Assembly: GCA_019358895.1 (NCBI GenBank)
Contig: JAHHIG010000021.1
Location: forward strand, 1-64,000
Origin: Tildeniella nuda ZEHNDER 1965/U140
GTDB lineage: Bacteria > Cyanobacteriota > Cyanobacteriia > Leptolyngbyales > Leptolyngbyaceae
DNA length: 64,000 nucleotides
Direction of reading: 5' to 3'
Made by a program: the position numbers and the translations under genes. The notes beneath the pieces were generated by a model that saw only the letters and a program-made list of their open reading frames with translations, searched no databases and was not told the origin of the DNA. Every line of letters starts with the position of its first letter. Position 1 is the stretch's first letter. This document shows, in pieces, positions 8,763-64,000 of the stretch.

Positions 8763-9604
8763 ATGACGCGATCGCCTGCTTTGGACCAGGTCACTTATCC
8801 TGACAGCGATGGACAACCGCTGTCTGATCATACGAAGCAGTTTAACTGGATTGTCACCGTCAAGCTGGGCTGCGAAGCGCTGTTTAAGTATGATCCCAAC
8901 GTTTTTGTCGCTGGCGATTTGCTCTGGTATCCCGTCGAGGGCAGCAACACGATGAAAGCCGCTCCCGATACGATGGTGATTTTTGGTCGTCCAAAAGGCG
9001 ATCGTGGCTCTTACCAGCAATGGCAAGAAGATCACATTCCACCTCAAGTCGCTTTTGAAATTCTGGCGTTGCTGAATGCAAGTATGATTTTCCCTCATCC
9101 CCAGCCCTTCTCCCTGGGGAGAAGGGAGCTAGAATTCTTGTCCCCTCGCCCTTTGGGAGAGGGTTAGGGTGAGGGCGGATTTTGCGGTTCATACCTCGAT
9201 TCAGCAACGCCGAAATTCTCTCTCCTGGAAACACGCTCGTAAAAATGGCGAAGAAGTTCCGCTTCTATGAACGTTATGGAGTCGAGGAATATTATCTCTA
9301 CGATCCAGACAAAGGAGACTTCAGCGGTTGGCTGCGCTCTGGCGATTTCTTGGAGGTGATTGAAAACCCGATCGGATGGGTTAGTCCCCGTTTAACCGTT
9401 CGCTTTGAGCTGGTCAATGGAGAGTTAGAAATCTATCGCTCTGATGGCGAGAAGTTTGCAACCTATCTAGAACTGATAGAGCAGAACTTAGAATTGGCAG
9501 AGCAGAATCAGCAAGCCCAACAGCAGTTAGAACAGGAACGGCAGCGATCGGATAAACTGGCAGCCAAACTCAGAGAACTGGGCATCAATCCAGAGGCATT
9601 GTGA
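8763..9604 (+). pseudogene. Uma2-family nuclease gene disrupted by MITE
   Basis: Two parts of one Uma2 (PD-(D/E)XK-like restriction endonuclease fold) gene. The 5' part (8763-9064) encodes residues to VAFEIL; the 3' part resumes at 9212 with EILSPGNTLVKMAKKF and ends with the coiled tail usual in the family. Removing the 147-bp element and one copy of the 8-bp GAAATTCT duplication restores a continuous frame of about 228 residues, normal for Uma2. The insertion falls in the codons of the conserved VAFEIL strand, where the active-site Glu lies. The insert adds 155 bp, so it shifts the frame; the 5' frame stops at 9167. Uma2 proteins are very numerous in cyanobacteria and of unclear role. Confidence 0.9.
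9065..9211. mobile_element. MITE-like element, copy 1 (147 bp)
   Basis: The element has perfect 13-bp terminal inverted repeats: GGCGTTGCTGAAT at 9065-9077 and ATTCAGCAACGCC at 9199-9211. It is flanked by an 8-bp direct repeat GAAATTCT at 9057-9064 and 9212-9219, the expected target-site duplication. The interior holds palindromic 'cttctccctggggagaag' and related sequence but no transposase. It is non-autonomous and would need a transposase supplied elsewhere. Confidence 0.92.
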
Positions 9605-11510: not shown

Positions 11511-11864
11511 ATGAGCAACTTTTCTTTCGACGACCTCTGGCGAAAAGATTTTCTCAAGGGAATACTCTTGTGGATCGTCATTGAGATCGTCAGTTTTTTG
11601 GTGCTGCCAGGTTTAGGAGCGATTCGACCGAGTGATCGCCTGAAGTTTTGGTTTGGTCTTAGCATTCCACTAGGGATCGGTGGAGCACTGATTTTAGGCG
11701 GCAGTTCTCGCTTTATTGCCATGACGAATGAGCGGGCGGCGAGTGGTAGCAAAACGTTACTGAGTTTGCTAGGACAGTTTAGCGGCTCGATCGGTCTTGC
11801 AGGGATTCTTTTTCCTTTTGTGATGGTGGTGGGAGAGTTCTTTGCCAAGATTTTTGATCGGTGA
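11511..11864 (+). CDS. small membrane protein, unknown function
   Basis: A 117-residue protein with three predicted membrane spans (about residues 17-37, 48-68 and 83-110) between short polar loops. I do not recognise the family. The codon use looks like that of the neighbours and the DUF1802 gene follows 84 bp downstream on the same strand, separated by a 'gggagta' tandem repeat. A plausible real gene because the hydrophobic pattern is regular and the frame is unbroken. Confidence 0.65.
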   Translation: MSNFSFDDLWRKDFLKGILLWIVIEIVSFLVLPGLGAIRPSDRLKFWFGLSIPLGIGGALILGGSSRFIAMTNERAASGSKTLLSLLGQFSGSIGLAGILFPFVMVVGEFFAKIFDR

Positions 11865-11947
11865 GGGATAGGGAGTAGGGAGTAGGGAGTGGGGATAGGC
11901 AGCACTGAATTTGCACGTTAGGTAGGGAGATTGTTGAGGGTAGCGAA

Positions 11948-52115: not shown

Positions 52116-52224
52116 GGCGTTGCTGAATAGAGGTATGAATGGTCAAAGCCGTTCGCACCCTCGCCCTCGCCCGTTGGGAGAAGAGCTGGGGATGAGGGAA
52201 ATCATCCTTGCATTCAGCAACGCC
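52116..52224. mobile_element. MITE-like element, copy 2 (109 bp)
   Basis: The same 13-bp ends as copy 1: GGCGTTGCTGAAT at 52116-52128 and ATTCAGCAACGCC at 52212-52224. In reverse orientation its interior aligns with copy 1 ('gcaag.atgattt.ccctcatccccagc.cttctccc' and 'ttcatacctc.attcagc'), with about 38 bases missing. No clear target duplication is seen (AAACTTTT left, CGGTTTTT right), so it is older or rearranged. Confidence 0.85.
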
Positions 52225-55852: not shown

Positions 55853-56086
55853 GGTGTTCAGCGCAGCCTATTCCAGCCACGCTTGTAGAGCTGTATTGGT
55901 TTTGAGAGCCAGCGCAGTCTACATTATGCTTTAGCCTTAGCGACTTTTGACTTACGCCAGCGCTTTTTAGGTGTTCAGCGCAGCCTATTCCAGCCACGCT
56001 TATAGAGCTGTATTGGTTTTGAGAGCAAGCGCAGTCTGCATTATGCTTTAGCCTTAGCGACTTTTGACTTACGCCAGCGCTTTTTA
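55853..56086. repeat. 117-bp tandem duplication
   Basis: Two direct copies, 55853-55969 and 55970-56086, match at all but about three positions. Each begins GGTGTTCAGCGCAGCC and ends GCGCTTTTTA. The period is exactly 117 bp. It contains no plausible gene over 30 codons. On the minus strand each copy reads a basic run 'KKRWRKSKVAKAKA' and a stop. Confidence 0.9.
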
Positions 56087-62073: not shown

Positions 62074-64000
62074 TCAGGCACTAAAGTAAGCAGCGGCGGG
62101 ATGATACGCCACGATCGCGGTGGTAGATTGCTCTGGATACAACTGTTCGCTTTCGTCCATGTGGAGATTGATGCGTTTGGCATCCAGCAAATCCAGCAGC
62201 GTGTATTGATCTTGCATATTGGGGCAGGCAGGATAGCCGAAGCTGTAGCGTGACCCTCGATAGCGTTGCGCCAACACATCGCGGATATTGTCCGGCTCTT
62301 CGCTACCAAAACCTAACTCACGACGAATGCGGGCATGAACCCATTCTGCCAATGCTTCTGCCATTTGCACCGCGATGCCGTGGAAGTAGAGATAGTCAGT
62401 ATAGCTGTTGCCGTCAAAGAGCTTTTTGGCGTACTCCGTTGCCACTTCGCCCATTGTGACTGCCTGCATGGGGAAAACGTCGAAGGAGTGGGGAGTGGGG
62501 AGTGGGGAGTCGGGAGTCGGGAGGTCTTTTGGTAGGTAGTAGTCGGCAATGCAGTAGCGGCGGAGGGATTTTTGGCGGGGGAAGGTGAAGGTGGCGAGGG
62601 GGGATAGGGAGTGGGGAGTGGGGAGTGGGGAGTGGGGAGTGTAGAGGTGAACGCTATTACCATCTGCCTGCGCGGGGAAGTAGCCGTAGATGGCTTGAGG
62701 ATGGAGCAGGTTCTCATTGACAATGCGGTGTTTCCATTGCTCCAGGATGGGGTAGACCGTTTCTTGCAGGAATTGGTCGTACTCTTCGCGGGATTGATCG
62801 CGGGGTTTGCGGAACTGCCACTGTCCCGCGATCAATGCCTGTAAATCCAAATACCAGAAGAGTTCGTCCCAGGGAATATCGGCTGGCTGGATCACCTTCG
62901 TGCCCCAGAAGGGGGGTGTGGGACGAGGGATGTCGGGGGCGATCGCGTCGGAACGAAGAGTGTCTTCGATGGAGGGAGTAGAGAGTAGGGAGTGGGGAGT
63001 GGGGTCAGAGTTTTGAATTGCTTCCCCTGCTTCCCCTGCTTCCCCTGCTCCCTCTGCTCCCTCTGCCTTCTGCCCTCTGCCTTCTGCCTCTTCTCCCAAA
63101 AAGCCTTTCACATCGTCCCACACCCCTGCTGCCTTCGCGGGCATGAGTTTGTCCATGAAGTGCAGGTCGGAGAAAGCATCTTTGCCGTAGATGACCTGAC
63201 CGTTATAGGCATTCTGGCAGTCTTCGTAGACGAACTTGGGCGTGAGGGCGGCACCGCCGAGAATGACGGGCACGGTAATGCCGCGATCGTTGAAGACCTG
63301 GAGATTCTCTTTCATGAAGGCAGTCGATTTGACCAGCAGACCGCTCATGGCGATGCAGTCGGGCTTGTGCTGCTCGTATGCCTCAATGATGGCATCCACA
63401 GACTGTTTGATGCCCAGGTTAACTACGCGGTAGCCGTTGTTGGACAGGATGATATCGACCAAATTTTTGCCGATGTCGTGTACGTCGCCTTTGACGGTGG
63501 CAATCACGAAGATGCCTTTTGCCTGCCCGGAGTCCTCTTTTTCCATGAAGGGTTCCAGGAAAGCAACGGCAGCTTTCATCGTTTCGGCGGATTGCAGCAC
63601 GAACGGTAGCTGCATTTGCCCAGAGCCGAAGAGTTCGCCGACAACCTTCATGCCATCCAGCAAAAAGGTGTTGATGATTTGGAGCGGTGGATATTGCGCG
63701 ATCGCCTGCTTGAGCAGGTCTTCTAGCCCCATGCGTTCGCCGTCAATGATGTGCTGTTTCAGGCGTTCTTCGAGGGGCAGATCGGCGATCGCGGTACGAG
63801 ACGATCGCGCTTCCTTTGCCGATACGCCTTCAAACAGCTTGGTCAGTTCTGCCAGCGGATCGTAGACGCACACATCGCCGTCAAACCGTCGGCGATCGTA
63901 AATCAGATCCAGGCAAACGGTTTGATGTGCGGCATCGATCTTCGCTAAGGGGAGAATTTTGCTGGCGCTGACGATCGCACCATCCATACCCGCCTCGGTG
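62074..64000 (-). CDS. metH: methionine synthase MetH, C-terminal part
   Basis: The gene enters from the right edge. The visible product (about 637 residues) holds the B12-binding cap ([21 protein letters not shown]), the cobalamin domain with DVHDIGKNL (His ligand) and the C-terminal AdoMet activation domain ending [19 protein letters not shown]. MetH moves methyl from methyltetrahydrofolate to homocysteine, the ahcY product. Three Ser/Thr/Pro/His or Glu/Gly low-complexity insertions (see findings) are encoded by spacer-type repeats in the correct frame. It should be full length to its left; the N-terminal homocysteine and folate domains lie outside the window. Confidence 0.95.

Follow-up and report, generated by a model that had tools for sequence, protein, structure and literature searches.

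A probable IS1-family MITE in a Uma2 gene of Tildeniella nuda and an interior repeat common to several MITE families of its genome

What entered a Uma2 gene of the cyanobacterium Tildeniella nuda, what could have moved it there, and where else does its interior occur? The locus lies in a stretch of 64,000 nucleotides that was analysed as a whole and is called the window below (strain ZEHNDER 1965/U140, GCA_019358895.1, contig JAHHIG010000021.1, positions 1-64,000, forward strand; 51.5% G+C). The window corresponds to C8:1-64000 of a draft genome of 6.08 Mb in 38 contigs. A preliminary description made from the letters had seen here a recent, non-autonomous mobile element and had proposed three comparisons: with other copies of its 13-bp ends and 8-bp duplications in the genome, with transposases having the same ends, and with the Uma2 locus of relatives lacking the element.

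We found it very probable that the element is an IS1-family MITE, that an IS1-type transposase moved it from elsewhere in the cell into the Uma2 gene, and that its interior is of non-IS1 type and common to other MITE families. For a MITE to break a Uma2 gene is in itself ordinary. What goes beyond the original finding is that one core of triplex-type motifs is common to several MITE families of one genome, as observed in this genome and in a limited survey. The preliminary description had missed both the IS1 family and the separate, shared interior repeat; the IS1 family and a likely driver of the MITE can now be named.

The insertion and the empty site in relatives

The features of the interrupted locus are as follows.

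8763-9064, + strand: 5' part of the interrupted Uma2 gene (ORF 8763-9167; 97% protein match, query 1-105)
9057-9064, + strand: left copy of the target duplication, GAAATTCT
9065-9211, + strand: probable IS1-family MITE, 147 bp (nearest paralogue L011, C11:308351-308497, 1 base different)
9065-9087, + strand: left terminal repeat, GGCGTTGCTGAATGCAAGTATGA (22/26 bases shared with the right end of the resident IS1)
9189-9211, - strand: right terminal repeat, GGCGTTGCTGAATCGAGGTATGA, as read on that strand (21/26 bases identical to the same IS1 end)
9212-9219, + strand: right copy of the target duplication, GAAATTCT
9220-9604, + strand: 3' part of the interrupted Uma2 gene (96% protein match, query 93-228)

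As expected of a MITE, the element is short, has terminal inverted repeats and is flanked by a target-site duplication, the two copies of GAAATTCT being identical. Its 147 bp held no transposase coding sequence and no gene, and promoters and terminators were looked for in it and not found. The outermost sequences were GGCGTTGCTGAAT...ATTCAGCAACGCC, perfect over 13 bp, while the arms continued to pair to 29 nt at 83%. A search of phage records returned no match, an Rfam search returned nothing near the gathering score, and the 13-mer end was not found in the papers searched. The preliminary description had thus placed the element, its 13-bp ends and the 8-bp copies exactly, though the end homology reaches further than it had said. 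It had also equated the duplication with the codons of a conserved VAFEIL strand; of that strand, it takes in only E, I and two bases of the L codon.

Joining the flanks without one copy of the duplication restored an open frame of 228 codons, as had been claimed, and the encoded protein scored above the cut-off for Pfam Uma2 PF05685 (59.6 bits with a cut-off of 27; 3.6e-16). In the window, the 5' frame enters the element and meets a stop at 9165-9167; insert and duplication together add 155 bp, so the frame is also shifted. The split frame and the early stop bear out part of the claimed inactivation; from the broken frame we would conclude that Uma2 activity was lost as well. The genome has about 11 further Uma2-type matches, so the loss of one copy may cost little.

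In the seven relatives compared at this locus, i.e., five congeners (G002-G006) and two further genomes (G014 and G019), the best matches of the joined-flank protein were 77-88% identical. The orthologue stands between a larE-like gene and a gene of a 108-aa membrane protein in the five congeners, as in the window, and adjoins larE in G014 and G019. The insert was absent in all seven relatives, with DNA uninterrupted across the FEIL segment. The gene was intact or nearly so, the G002 orthologue having one in-frame TAG.

Both halves of the gene are open (134 and 140 codons), as they would be if the insert were old and tolerated and the half-genes worked as separate products, the gene not being truly inactivated. 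We consider this highly improbable. The nearest paralogue of the element differs by 1 base of 147, which also agrees with the earlier dating of the event as recent, and the duplication copies are identical. The listed 3' ORF starts at a TTG within the element. The break lies in the conserved FEIL segment, and a weak match of the joined-flank protein to solved Uma2-type structures covers residues 93-142, mostly downstream of the break, so that the 5' product would be without part of the conserved domain. A young insertion that breaks the gene remains the preferred reading; with a likely transposase in the same genome, an insertion that is young and precisely readable lends itself to a clean test of whether IS1 moves MITEs in cyanobacteria.

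Family copies and a candidate IS1 partner

The exact 13-mer end occurred 34 times in the genome, compared to 0 for the reversed control, and 25 elements had two ends (24 MITE-sized and one IS), i.e., dispersed copies as expected of a MITE. Exact 8-bp duplications flanked 16 of the 25; duplications of 7, 9 and 13 bp were seen once each, and six elements had none, L022 among them, where 13 bp match in all but one position. Matches between 600 mispaired flanks reached 5 bp at most. Given these three results, the family pattern cannot be ascribed to chance. The copies with 8-bp duplications support the claim that the element is mobile, and the lack of a transposase in its 147 bp the claim that it is non-autonomous. 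The "known target length" holds in that the duplications were mostly of 8 bp; it is not a fixed length.

Duplications made by IS1 elements are about 8-9 bp, occasionally longer, and variable, and arise at A+T-rich sites. Besides the lengths observed here, the composition agrees: the 8-bp target sites had 33% G+C compared to 51.5% in the window. Insertions with a clear duplication fell inside an open frame of at least 120 codons in 5/18 cases, compared to 77% of random window positions (a rough comparison, in which 5/18 had less than 1 kb of flank). The Uma2 insertion therefore belongs to a minority class. The Uma2 copy differed from L011 by 1 base of 147, from L026 by 2, and from L027 and L030 by 4 each; differences this small indicate a young subfamily. 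The window also holds a second copy of the family.

52116-52224, + strand: second family copy, 109 bp, interior and core shortened, no target duplication

Several copies were themselves involved in nesting. L103 is an IS1-type MITE nested in the core of another MITE, and an IS110-like element lies inside an IS1-type MITE at L018 (the end of contig C21), L001 and L002. An IS110 driver was rejected, as the IS110-like frame beside the copy at the C21 end (its family recognised by eye) interrupts the MITE. A ~127-bp MITE end is common to contigs C5, C6 and C21, which is where the assembly is broken; this end is therefore present at least twice.

The family end signature is GGCGTTGCTGAATNNANRTATGA. 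A degenerate 752-bp IS1-type element in genome G081 carries two perfect 23-bp ends of this signature, and a protein assembled from parts of this element and of a further copy (L041) served as the query for a transposase. One intact relative was found in the T. nuda genome itself, a 757-bp IS at C2:10486-11242 with ends GGCGTTGCAGAAT and GGCGTTGCTGGAT and its own 8-bp duplication, AAATTCCA. Its transposase is encoded in one uninterrupted frame (L093:627-1316) and belongs to the IS1 family (NCBIfam transpos_IS1 NF033558, 259 bits with a cut-off of 100; Pfam DDE_Tnp_IS1 PF03400, 6.5e-26). The Uma2 copy has GGCGTTGCTGAAT at both ends, identical in 12/13 bases to either end of the resident IS, while the MITE subfamily of L094, L095 and L103 has exactly the two different 13-bp ends of that IS (13/13 for L094). 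The search for a transposase with the same ends thus led to one with nearly the same ends. An intact resident IS1 with such ends and an 8-bp duplication of its own makes the 147-bp element most probably an IS1-family MITE. Its likeness to the IS1 family (PF03400, NF033558) lies in the terminal repeats of the resident copy, the transposase family and duplications of 8 bp or somewhat more; it differs in having no transposase, about 24 bp per end in common with the IS, and a foreign, G-rich interior.

In a survey of the 23-bp end in other cyanobacteria (134 ends), 12 ends abutted an IS1 transposase coding sequence and 53 had 8-bp duplications, with interiors that varied widely. What lies between the ends at L040, L047, L058, L059 and other loci of these cyanobacteria is a different hairpin repeat, CCCCCTAAATCCCCC.., here too with 8-bp duplications. 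Many relatives have two overlapping frames meeting near residues 108-113, as in frameshift-expressed IS1; the resident IS1 transposase has a single frame. In the T. nuda genome, half of a MITE is joined directly to a 3' fragment of IS1 at C30:263776-263970, a hybrid indicating that recombination between IS1 and MITE occurs.

We propose that an IS1-type transposase supplied in trans, its most likely source being the resident IS at C2:10486-11242 or one closely related to it, would have recognised a MITE copy already present by its ~23-bp ends. By the chemistry general to DDE transposases, the MITE ends would be joined to target DNA cut at GAAATTCT with an 8-bp stagger, and the host would then repair the gaps, giving the 8-bp duplication; the insert would then split the Uma2 frame and add the early stop. 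This pairing of transposase and MITE is suggested by the sequences of their ends. Since the resident IS differs in 1/13 bases at each end, a now-lost IS1 with GGCGTTGCTGAAT ends could also have been the driver, and the presence of the end signature in many cyanobacteria (among the matches listed) would allow for import of the transposase or of the MITE.

The same 1/13 differences leave some room for the MITE having been moved by a transposase from outside the IS1 family, e.g., ISL3 or IS6 with their GG-starting ends and 8-bp duplications, its IS1 likeness being incidental. For example, a 187-nt MITE of Microcystis aeruginosa PCC 7806 is also cyanobacterial, also interrupts a gene and also has 8-nt duplications, which are therefore not unique to IS1; it differs in its GGCTCTTCG ends and is attributed to an ISL3-family transposase (PMC11448079). 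Conversely, several genomes have the 23-bp signature directly beside IS1 transposase coding sequence, one MITE subfamily has both asymmetric ends of the resident IS1, and that IS1 itself made an 8-bp duplication. The 13-bp and near-13-bp duplications likewise fit the variable duplications of IS1. Overall, we see a driver of another family as very unlikely and retain the IS1-type transposase. IS982 was also considered and rejected, as the resident IS982 has ACGTGAGTTCGACGA ends and a 7-bp duplication.

Nezha, a MITE of Anabaena/Nostoc, has terminal and direct repeats; its strains were not among the matches listed in our scan of genome contigs for the 23-bp signature. It has been attributed to ISNpu3-like elements (Zhou et al. 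2008, as cited in PMC3049150 and PMC10969869) and, going by that description, resembles the present element in being short, non-autonomous, cyanobacterial and ascribed to an IS whose ends match its own.

The core shared by several MITE families

Between its ends, the 147-bp element consists of an inverted pair of G-rich motifs of the intrastrand-triplex type.

9092-9126, - strand: first core half, a variant of the triplex-type motif with a 10-nt stem, CCCTTCTCCC..GGGAGAAGGG..GGGATGAGGG
9143-9175, + strand: second core half, an exact match to the TM_ECO intrastrand-triplex consensus (PMC4666352)

The TM_ECO consensus, CCCTCNCCCN3-6GGGNGAGGGN3GGGNGAGGG, describes repeats that are numerous in cyanobacteria and Enterobacter and that form inverted pairs in E. 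coli too, where mobility genes were never found around their sites (PMC4666352). The dispersal of such repeats is unexplained in the literature. In the T. nuda genome, by contrast, a repeat reported as unlinked to mobile elements mostly sits inside mobile-element ends: the majority of classified copies lay within MITEs, many with target duplications. The shared core therefore connects two literatures, on intrastrand-triplex repeats and on MITEs. That the interior descends from an internally deleted IS1 was not supported, the longest string shared with IS1 being 10 bp, within the range of shuffles (mean 8.1, max 12). We found no covariation in the core (term 0.48; two-sided change in 1/42 pairs) because the stems are nearly invariant, and we make no claim of selection on structure.

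Among 75 readable core copies in the genome, 22 had IS1-type ends, 23 had ACGCGATGTGC ends (the ACG family) and 4 had TTATATACTT ends (the TAT family); in 12 the ends were mixed or recognised only in part, two of these copies being IS1/ACG chimeras, and 14 were unassigned. The same core is thus present in at least two other MITE families with different ends. Duplications were of 6-7 bp in 23/33 two-ended ACG elements and of 8 bp in 5/7 TAT elements, which implies more than one transposition system.

The two chimeras suggest that ends can be swapped around the core. In L010 (C9:262789) the left end is IS1-type and the right end ACG-type, in L099 (C37:122862-123005) the arrangement is reversed, and neither has a duplication. 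In congeners, the genes on either side of each locus are direct neighbours, separated by a short spacer in place of the element, so that reciprocal recombination between loci far apart is unlikely. A better fit would be conversion, or a nested insertion and a later deletion between the two cores; at L021, an ACG element sits in an IS1-type MITE that lacks its right part. The chimeras may also be misassemblies of a repeat.

We tentatively suggest, from this genome and a limited survey and with somewhat less than even confidence, that the triplex-motif pair could be an exchangeable module inside unrelated MITE families (IS1-type with 8 bp, ACGCGATGTGC with 6-7 bp, TTATATACTT with 8 bp duplications), passed on by conversion or by nested insertion and deletion and travelling with different transposases. 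If so, widespread triplex motifs could have spread without a transposase of their own. It is also quite possible, though again short of an even chance, that different IS ends captured a common palindromic repeat independently, or converged on G-rich hairpins, with no exchange between families. The linkers between the hairpins differ by scaffold. The core without IS1, ACG or TAT ends was also found in distant bacteria, in Pseudanabaena and Enterobacter plasmids, so that separate captures could have happened. On the other hand, in each chimera a single core has an IS1-type end on one side and a ACGCGATGTGC-type end on the other, at loci whose flanking genes are adjacent in relatives; this suggests at least two events of exchange, or of nested insertion with deletion.

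The other families also deserve a brief description. The ACGCGATGTGC-end family comprised 33 two-ended copies (loci L151-L209 and L326-L355), and the resident IS982, with ACGT(G/C)AGTTCGACGA ends and its 7-bp duplication, is a possible partner of it. MITEs with GG(C/T)(A/G)TTTATATACTT ends, 8-bp duplications and the same core occurred at L153, L165, L175, L185, L191, L194 and L195; no autonomous partner of these was identified.

Other repeats were observed in the window as well. Arrays of G-rich heptamers (GGGGAGT-like) lie at 62485-62662 and 11858-11912; G-rich quadruplex repeats have been reported for Nostoc (PMC4692102). Two adjacent 117-bp copies, 97% identical, occupy positions 55853-56086.
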